Made by a program: the position numbers and the translations under genes. Below, in pieces: positions 47,803 through 57,141 of a stretch of DNA of 64,000 nt (its first letter is position 1; every line of letters begins with the position of its first letter). Below the pieces are notes generated by a model that did no database searches, was not told the DNA's origin, and saw nothing but the letters and a program-made list of their open reading frames with translations. Origin of the DNA: an uncultured Tateyamaria sp. (lineage in GTDB: Bacteria; Pseudomonadota; Alphaproteobacteria; Rhodobacterales; Rhodobacteraceae); NCBI RefSeq assembly GCF_947487805.1, contig NZ_CANKXW010000003.1, positions 310,001 through 374,000 of the forward strand, read 5' to 3'.

Positions 47803-48807
47803 TTATCGCACCAGCGCCGAGGTCCACGCCTCGAGAAAGATCTGGCGTTTGAGCCGGTCGAGATAGACGAGCAGGCCCGGCTCCAGCGACACCACGTTCA
47901 GGCGCGCGGGATCAGATACACCGATGGACGGCAGCGGATATTCCGGCTGCGCCGCATCGGCCCATGCCCCTTGGGTCAGGTAGGCGACAAGGTCTGTGGC
48001 CGCGGCCTCCTCGCCGGTGGCGTCCAGCACCAGCGCCGTGCGCATCATCGTGGTGGCGAAATCGCTTGGCGTGATGATCGCGACCTTGTCCCGTGTTTCC
48101 GGCCGGGTGGAGGCATAGCTGCCCAGCACGTTGTAGGCGACGAACAGGTCGCCCTTGGCCAGATCGTCGATCATATCCCCCGAACAGCAATAAAGCCGCG
48201 CATCAAGGCTGCCGAAAACCTCCATCAGCCGCCAATAGGTCTCTGACGTGCGCGCGTCTTGCGTGGCAAAGAGGTACCCAAGCCCCGACAGGCGCACGTC
48301 ATAGGTGCCCAGACGCCCGCGAAAATGGGCGGGGTCGGCGCGCACCGCCTCGATCAGCTGTTGCCGCGTTTCCGGCACGGGCCGCCCGGCAAAGGCGGCG
48401 CGGTTCAGCACGATGGTCGCGGGTTCGAGGGTAAAGCCAAAAAGCGTCTGCCGCCACTGGGTGCCCGCCGTCTGCTCCAACCCCGACAGGCGCCGCGCCA
48501 GCCCGTCATTGGCAAGCTTGAGTTGCAGGTCCATGGCGCTGGATATGGCGATGTCGTAGCAATCGGGACAGTCCGCGATCAGTGTCACGATGTCGGCGGA
48601 GCCCGCCACGGCATAGTCGATCCGCAGGTCCGGGCGCTGCGCGAGAAACCCCTCGAGAATGGGTGCGAATATGTCCGTGTCCGTGCTGGAAATCACCCGC
48701 AGGGTGGTTTCCGCGGCGGCCCCCTCGAACATCTGGCGGTCCTCCAGGTCTGCGGCCCAGACGAAGGGGGCCCAGATCATCGCCACTAAAAGTACAAGAC
48801 TGCGCAT
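47803..48807 (-). CDS. Periplasmic binding protein associated with the TctE-like kinase
   Basis: 334 residues. A signal peptide (MRSLVLLVAMIWAPFVWAADL) precedes a type 2 periplasmic-binding fold of the iron(III)/spermidine type: VISSTDTDIFAPILEGFLAQRPDLRIDY, YDIAISSAMDLQLKLANDG, GTYDVRLSGLGYLFATQD and VLGSYASTRPETRDKVAI. No ABC permease or ATPase is adjacent; instead its start overlaps the kinase gene end by about 22 bases. Such proteins in TctDE-type operons can act as extracytoplasmic co-sensors, which I infer here. Confidence 0.82.
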   Translation of the reverse strand: MRSLVLLVAMIWAPFVWAADLEDRQMFEGAAAETTLRVISSTDTDIFAPILEGFLAQRPDLRIDYAVAGSADIVTLIADCPDCYDIAISSAMDLQLKLANDGLARRLSGLEQTAGTQWRQTLFGFTLEPATIVLNRAAFAGRPVPETRQQLIEAVRADPAHFRGRLGTYDVRLSGLGYLFATQDARTSETYWRLMEVFGSLDARLYCCSGDMIDDLAKGDLFVAYNVLGSYASTRPETRDKVAIITPSDFATTMMRTALVLDATGEEAAATDLVAYLTQGAWADAAQPEYPLPSIGVSDPARLNVVSLEPGLLVYLDRLKRQIFLEAWTSALVR

Positions 48808-50144
48808 GCGCCACCCGCTTCCAGATTTTTCAACTCCAGCCGCCCGCCATGGGCCTCGGCCACGTCCTTGGCAATCGTCAGCCCCAGCCCGGACCCCACC
48901 GTATCGCGCGCATTGTCGCCCCGCTGGAACCGTTGCGACAACAGTTCGATCTGGTCCTTGGGAAAGCCGATGCCCTGATCCGTCACGGTGATGGACGGGC
49001 CGGGTTGCGCCGACACATGGATGTGCACCACGCTTTCCGCGGAGGAGTATTTCAGCGCGTTGTCGACCAGATTGCGCACAGCGTTCTGCACCAGGATCGG
49101 GTCGGCCTGCACCGGCACGGGCCCGTCGCTCGAAATGGTCAGGTCAAGGTCCATCATCTCGGCCACCGGCGTCAGCCGATCCACGATATCCGAGCAGATG
49201 GAGACCAGATCGACATCCTGTTTGTCCAGCTGGTCGCCGCGAAACGTCACCATCGCATGATCTAACAGCTGCCCTGCGGCCCGGCTGCTTTCGTCGATGG
49301 CGCGGATCATCGACCGCAGCGCCTGCCGGTTCTCATCCTTGTCCACCCGCATCAGCGTGACCTCTGCATGACTGCGCACCGTGGCAAGCGGCGTGCGCAC
49401 CCGGTGCGCAGCCTCGGCAATAAACGTCTCGGATTGGGTCAGCGAATGGCTCAGCCGTGTCATCAGCGCATTGAACGAGGTCACCAGCGGCGACAGCTCG
49501 GTCGGCACCGACCGGGTCACGGGCCGCAGATCGCTGGGCCCGCGCCGCGCAACCGACGCCGCAATCTGCCCAAGGGGCCGCAAGGTGGAGGCGGAGGTCC
49601 AGAGCGCCATGCCCGCCGCCAGTAGAAAAAACACCGCACCAAACACGGCGGCGTTGATCGAGATCGTCAGCAAGGTGCCCGACAGGCTGTCGCGCGTCTG
49701 CGCCACACTCACGGTCAGCAACACGGGCCGCGGACTGGCCGGCAGGCTGTGGGTCAACGTGGCGACCCGCACATCGCCGCCTGCGAAACCCCGCGTGGCG
49801 AACCGCGGCTCGCCCATCGGCGCGAACGGGCCCGACGACAGCCCCTCATACCCGCTCAGCAACACGTCCCCCTGATGGATCGCATAGAACACCCGGTCAT
49901 CGGCCGCCGTGTCCAGCATCGAAAACGCGGCATAGGGCAGGTCCAGCTCGATCTGCCCGCCGCGCACAACCGCCGCGTCCATCAGCGACGTGACCGACGC
50001 CTCGAGGATACGGTCCTGGCTTTGTTGCGCGATGCCCTGCGCATAGGTGCGCACCACGAGGTAGAAAAGGATGGCCAGCACCGCCGCCCCGCCGATCAGG
50101 GTCAGGGTCAGACGACGGCGCAGGGACCATCCGCTACCCCTCAT
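48786..50144 (-). CDS. tctE: TctE-like sensor histidine kinase
   Basis: 452 residues from the ATG at 50144. Two membrane helices (about 12-33 and 160-185) enclose a periplasmic domain of about 125 residues, then a linker, the H-box AEAAHRVRTPLATVRSHAE, N-box NLVDNALKYS, DQGIGFP and GSGLGLTIA. It closely follows the TctE/QseC layout. It overlaps the response regulator by 11 bases and the binding-protein gene by about 22 bases. Divergent from tctCBA, which it presumably controls through the adjacent regulator. Confidence 0.88.
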   Translation of the reverse strand: MRGSGWSLRRRLTLTLIGGAAVLAILFYLVVRTYAQGIAQQSQDRILEASVTSLMDAAVVRGGQIELDLPYAAFSMLDTAADDRVFYAIHQGDVLLSGYEGLSSGPFAPMGEPRFATRGFAGGDVRVATLTHSLPASPRPVLLTVSVAQTRDSLSGTLLTISINAAVFGAVFFLLAAGMALWTSASTLRPLGQIAASVARRGPSDLRPVTRSVPTELSPLVTSFNALMTRLSHSLTQSETFIAEAAHRVRTPLATVRSHAEVTLMRVDKDENRQALRSMIRAIDESSRAAGQLLDHAMVTFRGDQLDKQDVDLVSICSDIVDRLTPVAEMMDLDLTISSDGPVPVQADPILVQNAVRNLVDNALKYSSAESVVHIHVSAQPGPSITVTDQGIGFPKDQIELLSQRFQRGDNARDTVGSGLGLTIAKDVAEAHGGRLELKNLEAGGACAVLYF

Positions 50145-50799
50145 CCAACCGGTACCCCAGCCCACGATGGGTCGAGATCGTCACGCTCGACCCCTCCAGA
50201 TGCTTGCGCAGCCGCCCGACATAGACCTCGATCGCGTTTTCGGTGACCGTGTCGTCATAGGAAAACAGCCTGTCCACCAGCTTGTCCTTGGAAAAGATCT
50301 GGCCCGGCGCATTCATGAACAGCTCGAGCAGGCGCAATTCGCGGTTGCGCAACGTAGTCTCGTTGCTGCCCACGGTCAGCACGCTGGCGACCGGGTTCAA
50401 GGCCACCGTACCCCGCCGTATGACGGTCTGGGCCGCGCCCGCTCGGCGGCGCATCACCGCGCGACAGCGGGCCTGCAACTCCGCATGATCAAACGGTTTG
50501 GTCAGGTAGTCATCCGCGCCCAGATCCAGCATACCCACCCGGTCGGACACTTCGGACCGGGCGGTCAGCACGATCACCGGCGTGTCGTCCTGCCGTGCGC
50601 GGTGCCGCTCCAGAAATCCGCGCCCGTCCCCATCGGGCAACATGATATCCAGCAGGATCAGGTCATAGTCTCCCACATGCAGGAAATCGGCCCCCTCGGA
50701 CAGGGTCGCGGCGTGGTCGATGACGTGGCCGTCCAGCCGCATCCGATCACACAGCGCGGCGGCCAGCTCTGCATTGTCTTCGATCAGCAGGTATTTCAT
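50134..50799 (-). CDS. tctD: TctD-like response regulator (OmpR family)
   Basis: 221 residues from the ATG at 50799. Receiver MKYLLIEDNAELAAAL with phosphorylation Asp in LILLDIMLPDGDG, lysine in YLTKPFD; a winged helix follows with LRNRELRLLELFMNAPGQIFSKDKLVDRLFSYDD and STHRGLGYRL. It activates transport genes in the TctDE paradigm. Divergent from tctC; the 106-base gap must contain both promoters and its binding site. Confidence 0.9.
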   Translation of the reverse strand: MKYLLIEDNAELAAALCDRMRLDGHVIDHAATLSEGADFLHVGDYDLILLDIMLPDGDGRGFLERHRARQDDTPVIVLTARSEVSDRVGMLDLGADDYLTKPFDHAELQARCRAVMRRRAGAAQTVIRRGTVALNPVASVLTVGSNETTLRNRELRLLELFMNAPGQIFSKDKLVDRLFSYDDTVTENAIEVYVGRLRKHLEGSSVTISTHRGLGYRLDEG

Positions 50800-50905: not shown

Positions 50906-51889
50906 ATGAAAACGTTTGAACTGAGCCGTCGGGCTCTTTTGGGCGCCGCTTTGGCGTTGGGTCTGGGTGGTCAGGCCATGGCGGACGGCCATCAGGTCGT
51001 CGACAGCATCCACTTTCTGATCCCCGGCGGCGCCGGTGGTGGCTGGGACGGCACCGCGCGCGGTACAGGCGAAGCGCTGACAGGCGCGGGCCTCGTGGGC
51101 AACGCGTCCTATGAAAACATGTCGGGCGGCGGCGGCGGCAAGGCCATCGGCTTCCTGATCGAAAACGCCGACAGCAACCACGGCACGCTGATGGTCAACT
51201 CGACCCCCATCGTGATCCGCTCGCTGACCGGTGTTTTCCCGCACAACTTCCGTGACCTGACACTGGTCGCAGGCACCATTGGCGACTATGCAGCCATGGT
51301 CGTGGGCAAGGACAGCCCGATCAACTCGATGGCCGACCTGATCGCCGCCTATGACGCCGATCCCGGTGCCACAGCTGTGGGCGGCGGATCCGTTCCCGGT
51401 GGCATGGACCACCTCGTCGCCGCGATGGTGATGGAAGCGGCGGGCAAAGATGCGCTTGGCGTGAAATACATCCCCTACGATGCAGGCGGCAAAGCCATGG
51501 CGGCCCTGCTGTCGGGCGAGATTGCGGCGCTGTCCACCGGCTTCTCCGAAGCGGTCGACCTGGCCAATGCGGGCGAAGTGAAGATCATCGGCGTCACCGC
51601 GCCCGAGCGTGTGGATGCATACCCGGATGCGCAGACCATGATGGAACAGGGCATCGACACCGAATTCGTGAACTGGCGCGGTTTCTTTGCAGCACCGGGC
51701 CTGCCCGAGGCACAGCTGGCCGCCTATCAGGATGCCATTGCCAAGATGTATGCGACCCCCGAATGGGAAGCCGTGCGCGCCCGCAACGGGTGGGTGAACA
51801 TCCACAACAATGGTGACGACTTCAACACTTTCCTGGAAAACCAGGAAAAGGTCATCGGCGATCTGATGAAGAAGCTTGGCTTCCTCTGA
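50906..51889 (+). CDS. tctC: Tripartite tricarboxylate transporter binding protein TctC
   Basis: 327 residues. An export signal with SRRALLGAALALGLGGQAMA contains a twin-arginine pair, so Tat export is possible. The mature protein has the TctC/Bug fold: IHFLIPGGAGGGWDGTARG, NMSGGGGGKAIGFLIEN, LMVNSTPIVIRSLTG, VGGGSVPGGMDHLVAA and WRGFFAAPGLP. GGGAGGAAAAT precedes the ATG. It captures the substrate in the periplasm for TctAB. A gap of 340 bases with two REP-like elements separates it from tctB, so differential expression or RNA processing is likely. Confidence 0.93.
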   Translation: MKTFELSRRALLGAALALGLGGQAMADGHQVVDSIHFLIPGGAGGGWDGTARGTGEALTGAGLVGNASYENMSGGGGGKAIGFLIENADSNHGTLMVNSTPIVIRSLTGVFPHNFRDLTLVAGTIGDYAAMVVGKDSPINSMADLIAAYDADPGATAVGGGSVPGGMDHLVAAMVMEAAGKDALGVKYIPYDAGGKAMAALLSGEIAALSTGFSEAVDLANAGEVKIIGVTAPERVDAYPDAQTMMEQGIDTEFVNWRGFFAAPGLPEAQLAAYQDAIAKMYATPEWEAVRARNGWVNIHNNGDDFNTFLENQEKVIGDLMKKLGFL

Positions 51890-51930
51890 TCCAAAGGCGC
51901 GGCTTTCGCCGCACATTATCTAAAACTGTG

Positions 51931-51980
51931 CGAGGGGTTTCACCCCTCGCGCTCCCCAAGGTATTTTCGGCGAAAGGAAG
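51931..51980 (-). repeat. REP-like intergenic element, copy C (inverted)
   Basis: Read on the minus strand it begins cttcctttcgccgaaaat, continues accttggggagcg and ends with the stem cgaggggt/acccctcg. Same architecture as copy A and copy B. Confidence 0.75.
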
Positions 51981-52100
51981 AGGAGACGATCCGGCCTCCC
52001 CTTCCCCTCGAAGGCGGTTCAACGGCCTTCCTCTCGCACGGTCATCGGCTCCTCAGCCTGTACCGTGCGGCCAAGGTACAAAGCATTTTATTAAAATTTG

Positions 52101-52156
52101 CTTTCCTTTCGCTCAAAATACCTCGGGGGAGTCCGAAGGACGGGGGCAGCGCCCCC
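52101..52156 (+). repeat. REP-like intergenic element, copy B
   Basis: Begins ctttcctttcgctcaaaat, continues acctcgggggagtccg and ends with the stem gggggc/gccccc around agc. Inverted relative to copy C, 120 bases away. Confidence 0.75.
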
Positions 52157-52229
52157 ATAGCAACGGCCGGTCATTTGACACGTCGGTCTGGCTGTCCCCG
52201 CGGGGACAGAATGTAACGGGAGAATGGAA

Positions 52230-52712
52230 ATGGCACTCGATCGCTGGATCGGATTGATATTGCTGGGGATATTCCTGGCCTATGGCTATGCGGCCTGGTT
52301 CACGATGGATGCGAGCCTTGCGCCTTTCATGCAGCGCAACCCCATCTGGCCCTCCACATTCCCCAAGATCCTGTCGATAATGGGCATTCTTTGCGCACTG
52401 GTCATTATTGCAGGCCTGGAAAAGGGCGAGGCCAAGATCGGGGACATCGATTACCGGCGACTGGGTGACTACCACCTTGGTCAGGCGCTGGGACTGCTGG
52501 CGTTGATGGTGGCCTATGCGCTGCTGCTGCGCCCTGGCGGGTTCCTTTTTTCCACCACCGGCTTTCTGATCGTGGGATCGGTGATCCTTGGCGAACGGCG
52601 GTGGATCACGATGATCGTGGTGTCGGCACTGGCCACCGGCGTCGTCTGGTATCTCGTGCAGGAGGTCCTTGGAATTTTCCTGCGCCCCCTGCCCGGCTTT
52701 CTAGGAGGATAA
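52230..52712 (+). CDS. tctB: Tripartite tricarboxylate transporter small subunit TctB
   Basis: 160 residues from the ATG at 52230 (GGGAG seven bases upstream; the ATG at 52224 is too close to it). Four hydrophobic helices (about 5-23, 44-62, 83-97 and 103-145 as a pair), the layout of TctB. FPKILSIMGILCALVII and LRPGGFLFSTTGFLIVGSVILGERRW are typical. Forms the membrane complex with TctA; their genes are four bases apart. Confidence 0.9.
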   Translation: MALDRWIGLILLGIFLAYGYAAWFTMDASLAPFMQRNPIWPSTFPKILSIMGILCALVIIAGLEKGEAKIGDIDYRRLGDYHLGQALGLLALMVAYALLLRPGGFLFSTTGFLIVGSVILGERRWITMIVVSALATGVVWYLVQEVLGIFLRPLPGFLGG

Positions 52713-52716
52713 CGCG

Positions 52717-54231
52717 ATGCTCGAAGGTATTCTGATCGGCCTGCAAACGGCCCTATCCGTCCAAAACCTGCTGATGGTGATCGGTGGGTGTCTGATCGGC
52801 ACGTTCATCGGCATGTTGCCGGGCCTTGGCCCGATGTCCATCATCGCCATCATGATCCCGGTCGCCATTTCGATGGGCGACGCGGCGGCAGCGCTGATTC
52901 TGCTTGCGGGGGTGTACTATGGCGCCATCTTCGGCGGCTCCACCTCGTCGATCCTGCTGAATGCGCCGGGGGTCGCGGGCACGGTCGCGACCAGTTTCGA
53001 CGGCTATCCGATGGCGCGGCAGGGTAAGGCCGGCAAAGCGCTGACAATCGCCGCGATTGCATCCTTCTGCGGTGGGACCATCGGGGCGGTCCTGTTGATG
53101 GTCTTCGCGCCGATGCTGTCGTCGGTCGCGCTGCTGTTTCATTCGGCGGAGTATTTTGCGCTGATGGTTGTGGGCCTGTCGGCCATCGCCGCCTTTGCCG
53201 GGACGGGTCAGGTGGCCAAGGCGATCATCATGACGCTGCTGGGCCTGATCATGGCCACAGTCGGCGAGGGCGCGCTGTTCAACATGCCGCGGTTCACCAT
53301 GGGGTTGATGGATCTGCAATCTGGCTTTGGCTTCATCACCCTCGCCATGGCGATGTTTGCCCTGCCCGAGGCAATTTTCCTCGTGCTCAACCCGGCGCGG
53401 TCCGCCCAAGGCGACAGCGGCGACATCAAGGACCTGCGCATTTCGCGGGCCGAGGCAAAGTCCATCGCGCCAGTGATCGGGCGGCAATCGCTTCAAGGGT
53501 TCTTTATCGGCGTGTTGCCGGGGGCCGGGGCGACGATTGCGTCTTTCCTCGGCTATGCCGTGGAACGCAACATCGCACCAAAGGCGGAGCAGGACGAGTT
53601 TGGCAAAGGATCGGTCAAGGGCCTTGCCGCACCCGAGACGGCCAACAACGCGGCCTGCACCGGGTCCTTCGTCCCGCTTTTGACGCTGGGCATTCCCGGC
53701 TCCGGCACCACGGCGATCCTGCTGGGGGCGCTCATCGCCCTCAACGTCACGCCAGGGCCGCGCCTGATGATCGACGACCCCCAGATCTTCTGGGCGGTCA
53801 TCATCTCGATGTATATCGGCAATCTGGTACTGTTGATCCTGAACCTGCCGCTGATCCCCTACATCGCCAAGATCCTGTCGGTGCCGCGGAATTTCCTGAT
53901 CCCGTTCATTCTCTTCTTTACGCTGATGGGGGCCTATATCGGGCAGAACAACGCGACCGAGCTCTTGTTGCTCGTGGGCTTTGGCATTTGCGCGACGGTG
54001 CTGCGCTTTGCCGATTACCCGCTGGCGCCGCTGCTGATCGGGTTCATCCTTGGCGGTATGCTCGAGAACAACTTCAGCCGTTCCATGCAGCTGTACGACG
54101 GGGTCAGCTTTGTCTGGGAGCGGCCCATGACGCTGGGCCTGTTGATTGTGGCGGCACTGCTGGTGATCCTGCCCAGCTACCGGGCGCGGCGCGCGCGGTT
54201 GCGGGCCAAGGGTGTGGCCGACGGTGACTAA
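52717..54231 (+). CDS. tctA: Tripartite tricarboxylate transporter large subunit TctA
   Basis: 504 residues with about eleven helices. Signature segments: GTFIGMLPGLGPMSIIAIMIP, GVYYGAIFGGSTSSILLNAPG, the repeat half PGAGATIASFLGYAVERN and LGIPGSGTTAILLGALIALN. Uses the cation gradient to import carboxylates delivered by TctC. GGAGG lies before the ATG. The downstream CoA-transferase gene begins inside its last codons, so uptake and activation are probably coexpressed. Confidence 0.96.
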   Translation: MLEGILIGLQTALSVQNLLMVIGGCLIGTFIGMLPGLGPMSIIAIMIPVAISMGDAAAALILLAGVYYGAIFGGSTSSILLNAPGVAGTVATSFDGYPMARQGKAGKALTIAAIASFCGGTIGAVLLMVFAPMLSSVALLFHSAEYFALMVVGLSAIAAFAGTGQVAKAIIMTLLGLIMATVGEGALFNMPRFTMGLMDLQSGFGFITLAMAMFALPEAIFLVLNPARSAQGDSGDIKDLRISRAEAKSIAPVIGRQSLQGFFIGVLPGAGATIASFLGYAVERNIAPKAEQDEFGKGSVKGLAAPETANNAACTGSFVPLLTLGIPGSGTTAILLGALIALNVTPGPRLMIDDPQIFWAVIISMYIGNLVLLILNLPLIPYIAKILSVPRNFLIPFILFFTLMGAYIGQNNATELLLLVGFGICATVLRFADYPLAPLLIGFILGGMLENNFSRSMQLYDGVSFVWERPMTLGLLIVAALLVILPSYRARRARLRAKGVADGD

Positions 54232-55417
54232 ACCGCTGGGTGGCATACGGGTTCTGGACCTGACCAATGTTCTGGCCGGTCCGTTCTGTTGCCACCAGTT
54301 GGTCCATATGGGTGCAGAGGTGATCAAGGTCGAAGCGCCCGGGCGCGGCGACCTTGCCCGCCAGCTGGGCGCGGATCCGGACCTGAATGCGCGGGGCATG
54401 GGCGTGTCCTTTCTGGCCCAGAACGCGGGCAAGAAATCAGTGACCGTGAACTTCAAGCATCCCGAGGGCAAGGCGCTGTTCGAACGGTTGGTGACCACCG
54501 CAGACGTGGTGGTCGAGAACTTTCGCCCCGGCGTCATGGCGCGGTTGGGGATCGGGTATGATGCCCTGACCAAACATAGGCCCGATCTGGTCTATTGCGC
54601 CATTTCGGGGTTTGGACAGGACGGCCCGTGGGTGGATCGGCCGGCCTATGATCAGATCATTCAAGGCGTGTCCGGGGTGATGTCGATCACCGGTGACGCA
54701 GACAGCGCGCCCTTGCGCGTGGGCTATCCGGTGGCGGACACGGTGGGCGGCATGACGGCGGCCTTTGCCGTGGCGGCGGCGCTGAACGCGCGCCCGCGCG
54801 GGTGTTTCATCGATTGCTCCATGCTGGAAAGCGTGCTGGCCACGATGGGATGGGTGGTGTCGAACCACCTGATTGCCGGGGCCACCCCGACGGCCCATGG
54901 CAACGAAAACCCGACCTCGGCCCCGTCCGGCGCGTTTCAGACCGGCGACGGGTTGATCAACATCGCCGCGAACAAGGACGAGCAGTGGGGGCTTTTGGTG
55001 GACTACCTTGGCCTGTCAGAGCTGCGCACCGATCCGGACTACGCGACCCGCGAGGACCGCAAGCGCAACCGGCACGCGCTGCGCACGCGGATCGAAGAAC
55101 GGCTTGCGCCCTGTTCCGCCCGCGCACTGGCACGCGAGTTGAACAGGATCGGTGTCCCCGCGGGGGCGGTGATGGAGGTCGCGGATGTGCTGGCCCATCC
55201 GCAGATTGCGGATCGCGGGTTGCTGACGGACTATGCGGATGTGCCGGGGGTGGGGCGCGATATCTCGGTGGTGAATACCGGGGTCAAGATGAACGGCGCG
55301 CCATTGCAGGTCGATGCGCCGCCGCCGCAACTGGGCGCGCATGCGCAAGAAATCTGGGGCGCGCTGGGGCTGGATGCGGCGGCGGTGCAGGACCTGGTGG
55401 ACAAGGGGGCGATATGA
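54224..55417 (+). CDS. Class III (CaiB/BaiF) CoA transferase
   Basis: 397 residues from the GTG at 54224 (GTG at 54212 is an alternative). CaiB/BaiF enzymes move CoA from a donor thioester to a carboxylic acid. Seen: GGIRVLDLTNVLAGPFCCHQLVHMGAEVIKVE at the N-terminus, NAGKKSVTVNFKHPEGKALF, DVVVENFRPGVMARLGI, ISGFGQDGPWVDRPAYDQI (the motif just before the catalytic aspartate region) and RGCFIDCSMLES. Located between tctA and a citryl-CoA-lyase-like gene, it probably makes the CoA ester of the imported acid; the donor is unknown. Confidence 0.92.
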   Translation: MTKPLGGIRVLDLTNVLAGPFCCHQLVHMGAEVIKVEAPGRGDLARQLGADPDLNARGMGVSFLAQNAGKKSVTVNFKHPEGKALFERLVTTADVVVENFRPGVMARLGIGYDALTKHRPDLVYCAISGFGQDGPWVDRPAYDQIIQGVSGVMSITGDADSAPLRVGYPVADTVGGMTAAFAVAAALNARPRGCFIDCSMLESVLATMGWVVSNHLIAGATPTAHGNENPTSAPSGAFQTGDGLINIAANKDEQWGLLVDYLGLSELRTDPDYATREDRKRNRHALRTRIEERLAPCSARALARELNRIGVPAGAVMEVADVLAHPQIADRGLLTDYADVPGVGRDISVVNTGVKMNGAPLQVDAPPPQLGAHAQEIWGALGLDAAAVQDLVDKGAI

Positions 55418-56205
55418 GCGACAGGGAATCGGATGTCTCAGAATGGTGGACCACATCGATCATCGACATGGCCCCCGGCCAGATCCGGATGCGCGGCCAT
55501 CCGATCGAGGACCTGATCGGCGAAGTCAGCTTTGTCCAGATGATCTGGTTGATGATGCGGGGCACCCTGCCCGAGGCCGCCGAGGCCCGCCTGTTGGAGG
55601 CGGCCCTTGTGGCGGCGGTGGACCACGGGCCGCAAGCGCCGTCGATTGCCGCCGCGCGTATGGCCGTCACCTGCGGGGTCGGGTTGAACGGGGCGCTGGC
55701 ATCGGCCGTGAATATGTTGGACGACGTGCATGGGGGTGCAGGCGAGCAGGCGGTAGAGCTGTACCAGCGGATTGCGGACACAAACGCGCCCCTAAGGGAC
55801 GTTCTGGACGATTGGCGGGCCGAACATGGGCGGTTCATCCCCGGTTTTGGCCACCGGTTTCACACGCCCACGGATCCGCGCGCGCCACGGCTGCTTGGGC
55901 TGGTGGATGATGCGGCGCAGGGGGGCATGGTGACGGGGCGGTTCGCGCAGATCGCGCGCGGCATCGAGACCACACTGGCGGAGGAAAAGGGCAAGCCCGT
56001 GCCGATGAACATCGACGGGGCCACGGCCGTGATCTTTGCCGAGCTGGCGTTCGCGGCACCGCTGGCACGCGGGCTGTTCTGCCTGTCGCGGTCCGTGGGG
56101 ATCCTGGCCCACGCGTGGGAACAGACGCAGCAGGGCGGACGCAACAAGGGGCCGACGCCACCGGGCTATCGTTGGACCTATACGGGTGACAACCCGATCA
56201 AGTGA
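55414..56205 (+). CDS. Citryl-CoA lyase-like short citrate synthase family protein
   Basis: 263 residues, far shorter than citrate synthase (about 430). The three catalytic residues of the family are present: histidine in DDVHGGAGEQA, histidine in GFGHRFHTPTDPRA and aspartate in PMNIDGATAVI. The last motif resembles the citryl-CoA-cleaving module of ATP-citrate lyase (NVDG) more than citrate synthase. The ATG overlaps the CoA-transferase stop (ATGA). Expected reaction: cleavage of citryl-CoA, or a similar 3-hydroxyacyl-CoA polycarboxylate, to acetyl-CoA and an oxoacid. Direction and substrate are inferred from context. Confidence 0.82.
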   Translation: MSDRESDVSEWWTTSIIDMAPGQIRMRGHPIEDLIGEVSFVQMIWLMMRGTLPEAAEARLLEAALVAAVDHGPQAPSIAAARMAVTCGVGLNGALASAVNMLDDVHGGAGEQAVELYQRIADTNAPLRDVLDDWRAEHGRFIPGFGHRFHTPTDPRAPRLLGLVDDAAQGGMVTGRFAQIARGIETTLAEEKGKPVPMNIDGATAVIFAELAFAAPLARGLFCLSRSVGILAHAWEQTQQGGRNKGPTPPGYRWTYTGDNPIK

Positions 56206-56217
56206 TGAGGCCGCCCT

Positions 56218-57141
56218 TCACCGCAGGGTGCTGTGACCGATCCGCCGCAACCCTTTGCGCGACAGTTCCTTTGCCAGAAGGTCAAAGACCAGACGAATGC
56301 TGGGGTTGGTGCGCAACTCGCGGTGCGCGACAAGCCATGTTTCGACTTCGACGGGTTCGAAACCGTCCCATGCCACAACCAGTTCGTCATAGAACTTGGC
56401 GATTTCGTCAGGCAGCACGCCGATCCCAAGCCCTTGCCGCATCAGCTCAACCGACATCGTGCCACTGGCCGTGCAAAGGTTGAAATTCGCACGGGTCAGA
56501 TTGAGCCCGCGCGACGCCATCAGCCCCAAGAGGTGTTCGGGATGTTCGAACCCGACGAATTGCAGCGCCGTGAAATCCTCGGGTTTTGACGGATGCCCGA
56601 CAGAAGCCAGATAGGACCGGGACGCATAAAGCGTCGCCGTGCGGTCAGGCAGACGCTTGGCAAAGAGGGCGTCATCCTGGGGCCGTGCATGGCGGATCGC
56701 GATATCTGCCTCGCGGCGCCGCAGATCGCTGATCTGGTTGGAGGTGACGATCTCGACCTGAAGCCCAGGCGCCACCGCTTGCAATTCGGCGAGGATGGCC
56801 GGCAGATACTGCGTAGCCAGCAGGTTCGTCGCCGAGATCGCGACATGCCCGGTAAAGGATTGCGACTGCCCGGTGGCGGCAATCGAGATGCGGTTGGCCG
56901 CGTCCCCCATGGTGCGGAAATGCTCCAGCAGCTGGGTCCCGGCCTGGGTCAGCAAAAGCGTGCGCGAACTGCGTTCGAACAGGGTCACGCCAAGCGCCTC
57001 TTCGATCCCGGCCACCTGTCGGCTGAGCGTGGGCTGCGTCAGCCCCAGCGCACGGGCAGCCGCCGACAAAGACCCTTCCTCGGCCGTGACCAAAAAGGCC
57101 CGCGCCTGGTTCCAATCGAAATTTGCACCCTTCCACTCCAT
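56218..57141 (-). CDS. LysR-family transcriptional regulator
   Basis: 307 residues from the ATG at 57141. N-terminal winged helix: FDWNQARAFLVTAEEGSLSAAARALGLTQPTLSRQVAGIEEALGVTLFERSSRTLLLTQAG. The ligand domain follows (GHVAISATNLLATQYLPAIL, IAIRHARPQDDALFAK). No clear Shine-Dalgarno, so possibly leaderless. Convergent with the lyase gene (12 bases between stops) and divergent from the first methyltransferase gene, which it probably regulates. A CGTATAG direct repeat lies in the shared 78-base promoter region. Confidence 0.9.
   Translation of the reverse strand: MEWKGANFDWNQARAFLVTAEEGSLSAAARALGLTQPTLSRQVAGIEEALGVTLFERSSRTLLLTQAGTQLLEHFRTMGDAANRISIAATGQSQSFTGHVAISATNLLATQYLPAILAELQAVAPGLQVEIVTSNQISDLRRREADIAIRHARPQDDALFAKRLPDRTATLYASRSYLASVGHPSKPEDFTALQFVGFEHPEHLLGLMASRGLNLTRANFNLCTASGTMSVELMRQGLGIGVLPDEIAKFYDELVVAWDGFEPVEVETWLVAHRELRTNPSIRLVFDLLAKELSRKGLRRIGHSTLR

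Follow-up and report, generated by a model that had tools for sequence, protein, structure and literature searches.

A candidate operon for the import, activation and cleavage of citrate lies at positions 50906–56205, on the + strand, of a 64,000-nt stretch of DNA from an uncultured Tateyamaria sp. (hereafter the window). It comprises five genes, tctC, tctB, tctA, caiB and ccl, whose arrangement on one strand, proposed in an earlier note made from the sequence alone, was borne out by gene calls and Pfam matches. The first three encode the substrate-binding receptor (tctC, 50906–51889; PF03401, 91 bits), the small membrane subunit (tctB, 52224–52712; PF07331, 74 bits) and the large membrane subunit (tctA, 52717–54231; PF01970, 465 bits) of a tripartite tricarboxylate transporter, which is complete, all three matches exceeding their cut-offs. 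Next come genes for a 397-residue protein assigned by Pfam to the class III (CaiB/BaiF) coenzyme A (CoA)-transferases (caiB, 54224–55417; PF02515, 393 bits), with a GTG start codon within the 3′ end of tctA, and for a 263-residue citryl-CoA lyase (ccl, 55414–56205; PF00285), joined to caiB by an ATGA overlap. Successive junctions measure 334, 4, −8 and −4 bases, three of them tight; the overlaps reported earlier among the last three genes thus amount to 8 bases for tctA/caiB and 4 bases for caiB/ccl.

The lyase passed the NCBI curated citryl-CoA-lyase model NF004864 (436.3 bits, cut-off 261), the solved structures nearest to its structure model are citryl-CoA-lyase modules, and it shares 33% identity over 233 aligned residues with 6hxp, a solved citryl-CoA lyase. 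Its length and the three catalytic residues of the citrate synthase family (H106, H147 and D201) are as the earlier note had described them, as is the motif resembling that of lyase modules, N-I-D-G at residues 199–202; in four alignments this position reads NVDG in the Hydrogenobacter citryl-CoA lyase and NTDF in three citrate synthases. Active-site residues H71, H106, H147, R156, D201, R226 and R243 were all identified, and R156, R226, H71 and H147 are conserved across the 180 complete rows of a 181-row lyase alignment. We take R156 and R226, with H71 and H147, to occupy the positions that in citrate synthase bind both oxaloacetate carboxylates. By family and residues, the protein is a predicted citryl-CoA lyase that would cleave citryl-CoA, and databases already give it that name automatically. 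In the transferase, D172 aligns with an Asp of solved class III relatives, including succinate-hydroxymethylglutarate CoA-transferase; this Asp is presumably the catalytic residue of the class.

A search of the genome with the lyase as query returned two matches only, the lyase itself and a 470-residue citrate-synthase-like frame. No ATP-citrate lyase module was seen in this search, no synthetase module occurs among the operon genes, and CitF (PF04223), the alpha subunit of holo-citrate lyase, had no match in the genome. The earlier suggestion of a cleavage that uses neither ATP-citrate lyase nor holo-citrate lyase agrees with these results.

Divergent to tctC, on the − strand, are genes for a TctD-like response regulator (50134–50799; top NCBIfam match NF012023 TctD, 178 bits, below the cut-off of 337) and a TctE-like sensor histidine kinase (48786–50165; 2CSK_N, HAMP, HisKA and HATPase domains, PF08521, PF00512 and PF02518; start codon uncertain). 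The pair (48786–50799) is not mentioned in the earlier note, and in many relatives the kinase gene is likewise divergent to tctC. The 334-base gap between tctC and tctB (51890–52223, + strand) carries, by fold computation, a strong hairpin directly 3′ of tctC, and ranks among the longest of the distances measured across the family ccl loci described below; such hairpin-bearing gaps after a binding-protein gene are common where that gene is highly expressed. A LysR-type regulator gene convergent to ccl (56218–57135, − strand; PF00126 and PF03466; start uncertain) was considered as a regulator of the operon and rejected, that position seldom holding a LysR gene in relatives; it probably lies outside the operon unit.

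Conservation and distribution of the gene set

In a family set of 394 genomes, 93 ccl loci were found in 88 genomes, all of them either retrieved or within the window. The caiB gene lies directly upstream of ccl in 64 of the 93. With a more relaxed criterion, admitting two loci in which the CaiB-like gene (29%) lies downstream, 66 of 93 loci are caiB-linked, 39 of them (window included) with tctA just upstream and 27 without. The comparative search for this transporter-transferase-lyase neighbourhood, recommended in the earlier note, is thus in agreement, with the order tctA-caiB-ccl in 39/93 family loci. The remainder consists of 16 loci of a second type, 2 probably of that type, 1 of a third type and 8 others; seven of these eight were scanned at one or two neighbours, with an AMP-binding ligase in one (L197) and no acyl-CoA-forming gene in the rest. 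A close ccl is present in 15 of 19 congeners, in 12 as tctCBA-caiB-ccl and in 3 as caiB-ccl without tctCBA. In the best 80 named ccl loci, selected by their similarity to the window, caiB is adjacent in 78/80 and tctA just upstream in 39/80. Chance adjacency of caiB and ccl is unlikely, because the Tateyamaria genome holds only 4 class III CoA-transferase genes and the pairing nevertheless recurs in 78/80 and 64/93 loci. As a side observation, a gene for an AbrB-family membrane protein separates tctA from ccl in two loci (L076, 7955–9001, and L085, 5361–6452), and there caiB lies several kb upstream.

Orthologues of tctA (identity 81% or more) occur in 105 of the 394 genomes, 64 of which also have ccl and 41 of which do not; a further 24 genomes have ccl only. 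This co-occurrence is strong (Fisher odds ratio 17, uncorrected for kinship). No CaiB-like gene was found downstream of tctA in the 20 of 41 tctA-only genomes that were inspected (L227 ends about 370 bases past tctA); in one tctA-only locus (L226), a 28% CaiB match lies upstream on the opposite strand. The TctC proteins of the inspected tctA-only genomes are 78–87% identical to that of the window, and on a tctA tree of 59 rows, three of them long-branched or mostly gaps, ccl presence switches about 10 times, 2 of these switches being forced by starred branches. Therefore caiB-ccl looks like an add-on to the transporter, the substrate of which is probably the same with or without the pair.

The lyase was also found in 29 plasmid records. 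In the 13 of these that were examined, a CaiB-like gene adjoins it in 11, the exceptions being Roseibium and Shinella. A Ruegeria plasmid shows the window's architecture, with an annotated CoA transferase and citryl-CoA lyase. On a plasmid of Ruegeria sp. THAF33 (L240, 8770–11360), genes for acetate kinase and phosphate acetyltransferase are convergent to ccl; they were considered as part of the system and rejected, acetate kinase being present in only 1/39 type I family loci. A plasmid of the Gammaproteobacterium Photobacterium has the order tctC-tctB-tctA-caiB-ccl, in which caiB and ccl overlap by 4 bases, adjoining a gene for a response regulator whose top match is DpiA (173 bits, cut-off 264). 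Cupriavidus metallidurans CH34 (L241, 4703–7810) encodes a TctC-family protein and a class III CoA-transferase, together with a lyase that shares 70% identity with that of the window; the 2010 genome paper, in the part available, states that the route through citryl-CoA synthetase and citryl-CoA lyase is not encoded there (PMC2864759). In Methylobacterium nodulans, the caiB-ccl pair is accompanied by a DASS anion symporter.

A candidate route of citrate cleavage and its alternatives

We favour, with moderate confidence, an accessory citrate-cleavage operon. TctCBA, under the control of the divergent TctDE-like pair, would import citrate; the class III CoA-transferase would transfer CoA to citrate, with succinyl-CoA or acetyl-CoA as the likeliest donor, forming citryl-CoA; and the stand-alone lyase, assigned by family and residues, would split citryl-CoA to acetyl-CoA and oxaloacetate. 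These products would be gained directly, bypassing aconitase, beside the ordinary tricarboxylic acid (TCA) route. With succinyl-CoA as donor, one thioester would be spent, and acetyl-CoA and oxaloacetate gained with no CO2 lost and no need of aconitase. The route would be accessory, and not needed for citrate use, because aconitase is present in the genome and ccl is absent from many of the genomes with tctA; for the same reasons a deletion mutant may grow normally on citrate. Given aconitase and the lack of CitF, the operon would therefore be a second way of using citrate.

A Ruegeria pomeroyi tctABC mutant (SPO0184) is reported to have lost 99% of citrate growth and drawdown, in a passage on R. 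pomeroyi transporters during a coastal bloom that also describes this citrate transporter as well conserved among Roseobacters (PMC10130141). SPO0184–0186 are labelled hypothetical proteins in the available parts of PMC4809877 and PMC2953401. Judged from this mutant, the oxaloacetate-binding residues of the lyase and the Photobacterium regulator, citrate appears to be the most likely acid. Among 11 relatives recovered by a PDB search with TctC, none was named as citrate-binding.

The import-activate-cleave logic of the earlier note thus has good support from the genes present, the residues conserved and the comparison with relatives, while the identity of the acid as citrate, its acceptance by CaiB, the CoA donor and the direction are predictions from sequence. 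Several further points weigh against the reading. CaiB scored below cut-off for 7/7 curated models matched, so that none fixes its specificity, and the R. pomeroyi data would bear on the window's TctCBA by likeness in kind, not by sequence. There are also the 27/93 loci with caiB-ccl and no window-type transporter, the 41/105 tctA genomes without ccl, and 7/93 loci (including the one unscanned) with neither caiB beside ccl nor another recognised acyl-CoA-forming gene. Aconitase offers citrate another way, and the Photobacterium kinase scored slightly higher with DcuS/MalK, for C4-dicarboxylates (389 bits, cut-off 520), than with DpiB (373 bits, cut-off 656). Finally, a relative of the caiB-ccl pair in Diaphorobacter lies in a ring-degradation-like cluster, alongside genes for a cupin protein and for members of the fumarylacetoacetate-hydrolase family. 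A cluster of this type could yield citramalate, and there citramalate or another acid may be the substrate.

Some of these observations would also suit a system in which the same activation and cleavage serve another imported acid (citramalate, methylcitrate or homocitrate), which we regard as unlikely, though to be taken seriously. The top-scoring CaiB models, both below cut-off, are those of succinate-glutarate and mesaconate transferases, a succinate-hydroxymethylglutarate transferase is among the solved relatives, and the Diaphorobacter cluster makes citramalate the main rival acid. The kept R156, R226, H71 and H147, in the roles presumed for them, are nevertheless more consistent with release of oxaloacetate than of pyruvate or glyoxylate, and the Roseobacter TctABC that has been studied is, on the passage cited, a citrate transporter. 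Independence of the two modules, with merely a shared promoter, caiB-ccl acting on an internally made acid and citrate used via aconitase only, is improbable: loci and genomes with one module and not the other, and the repeated switches of ccl on the tctA tree, would be expected of it, yet the order tctA-caiB-ccl recurs in 39/93 family loci and again in Photobacterium, and the co-occurrence of tctA and ccl, uncorrected for kinship, is strong. Very improbable, in our view, is a lyase that acts as a synthase in vivo, or a pair running in reverse to form citrate or an acid resembling it. Chemical reversibility and the fold shared with citrate synthase speak for this reading, but the genome has its separate 470-residue citrate-synthase-like frame, and the protein is short like lyase modules, with their N-[IV]-D-G motif. 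Moreover, the lyase is linked to importers, and cleavage is favoured over synthesis because caiB is replaced in some relatives by other acyl-CoA-forming enzymes.

The favoured citrate route resembles several known systems in part. In holo-citrate lyase (CitDEF), regulated by CitAB/DpiBA, a thioester is transferred to citrate, which is then cleaved. The same transfer-then-cleave logic would operate here with unrelated components, and the Photobacterium operon stands beside a DpiA-like regulator and a DcuS/DpiB-type kinase; the window's lyase, however, has the citrate-synthase fold and not the CitE fold, and free CoA is expected instead of an acyl-carrier protein. The citryl-CoA lyase of Hydrogenobacter thermophilus also stands alone, shares its fold and family with that of the window and acts on free citryl-CoA, but there, as far as the citing text goes, a citryl-CoA synthetase makes the substrate in reductive TCA carbon fixation (Aoshima 2004a,b, as cited in PMC9768450), whereas the window pairs its lyase gene with one for a class III CoA-transferase, within an import operon, in a genome with aconitase. 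In itaconate degradation (Ict, Ich, Ccl), as outlined in the available part of PMC12290011, the acid is likewise activated by a CoA-transferase and a hydroxyacyl-CoA then cleaved to acetyl-CoA, but a hydratase is needed and the other product is pyruvate, not oxaloacetate. Neither an itaconyl-CoA hydratase nor a CitE-type citramalyl-CoA lyase is among the five operon genes, the lyase being PF00285; two PF15617 matches lie elsewhere in the genome, below cut-off. The lyase of the itaconate pathway belongs to the CitE family. The citrate transporters R. pomeroyi SPO0184–0186 and Pseudomonas aeruginosa TctABC are, in the passages available, of the same transporter family as the window's TctCBA (PMC10130141, PMC10865840), and the latter has a Tct-type two-component regulator such as that beside the operon (PMC10865840); unlike both, as there described, the window appends two catabolic genes to the transporter operon.

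No description of a route for citrate by CoA-transferase and citryl-CoA lyase, or of a CoA-transferase acting on citrate, was found in the literature searched, mostly titles and abstract openings with few subscription journals, and a search for Tateyamaria with citrate gave nothing relevant. The name of the lyase, given automatically, is known; what appears to be new is the assembled pathway, as a variant of citrate cleavage. The novelty suspected earlier thus holds in that no characterised pathway was found, but not as a peculiarity of the window, the pair being widespread. If the proposal is true, some of the imported citrate would yield acetyl-CoA and oxaloacetate by direct cleavage, with no need of aconitase, ATP-citrate lyase or citrate lyase; predictions of carbon flow would change, and a CoA-transferase active on citrate would be added. 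For the large family that databases already name citryl-CoA lyase, the operon points to a possible partner and function.

Other genetic settings of the lyase

The second type of ccl operon (e.g. L208, L051, L190, L195, L205), without caiB, contains genes for GntR, a Gfo/Idh/MocA dehydrogenase, mostly TRAP DctPQM, a QuiC-like fusion, ccl and a sugar-isomerase-like protein, together with genes for a protein resembling acylating aldehyde dehydrogenases (NF047625, 423 bits, below the cut-off of 600) and for a thiamine-diphosphate enzyme. In L191 (5896–16899), ccl has as neighbours a DddP-like gene and genes for an aldehyde dehydrogenase, E2, E1 beta and E1 alpha, and E3 is encoded on the opposite strand; the set is a predicted dedicated 2-oxoacid dehydrogenase complex adjoining a citryl-CoA lyase. 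Both settings, like that of L197 with its AMP-binding ligase, include an enzyme of a kind able to form an acyl-CoA.

It is tempting to speculate, as a tentative possibility, that the short lyases serve aerobic bacteria as a general citryl-CoA hub with interchangeable thioester-making enzymes: the CoA-transferase for imported citrate, an acylating aldehyde dehydrogenase preceded by a thiamine-diphosphate enzyme, a 2-oxoacid dehydrogenase complex, and an AMP-forming ligase, as where ccl occurs with an AMP-binding ligase (L197). Such a hub would include an undescribed route from a quinate- or shikimate-like cyclitol to citryl-CoA, and the second ccl operon possibly encodes this pathway. A literature search linking quinate with citryl-CoA found nothing relevant; quinate and citrate have matching tertiary hydroxy-acid carbons. 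On plasmid pAZKH of Azoarcus sp. KH32C (L245, 3843–11357), genes for an HPPD-like protein, a sugar-isomerase-like protein, caiB, ccl and a thiamine-diphosphate enzyme 66% identical to that of the second type are followed by genes for shikimate dehydrogenase and AroD, and this locus links the caiB-ccl module to a predicted breakdown of shikimate or quinate.

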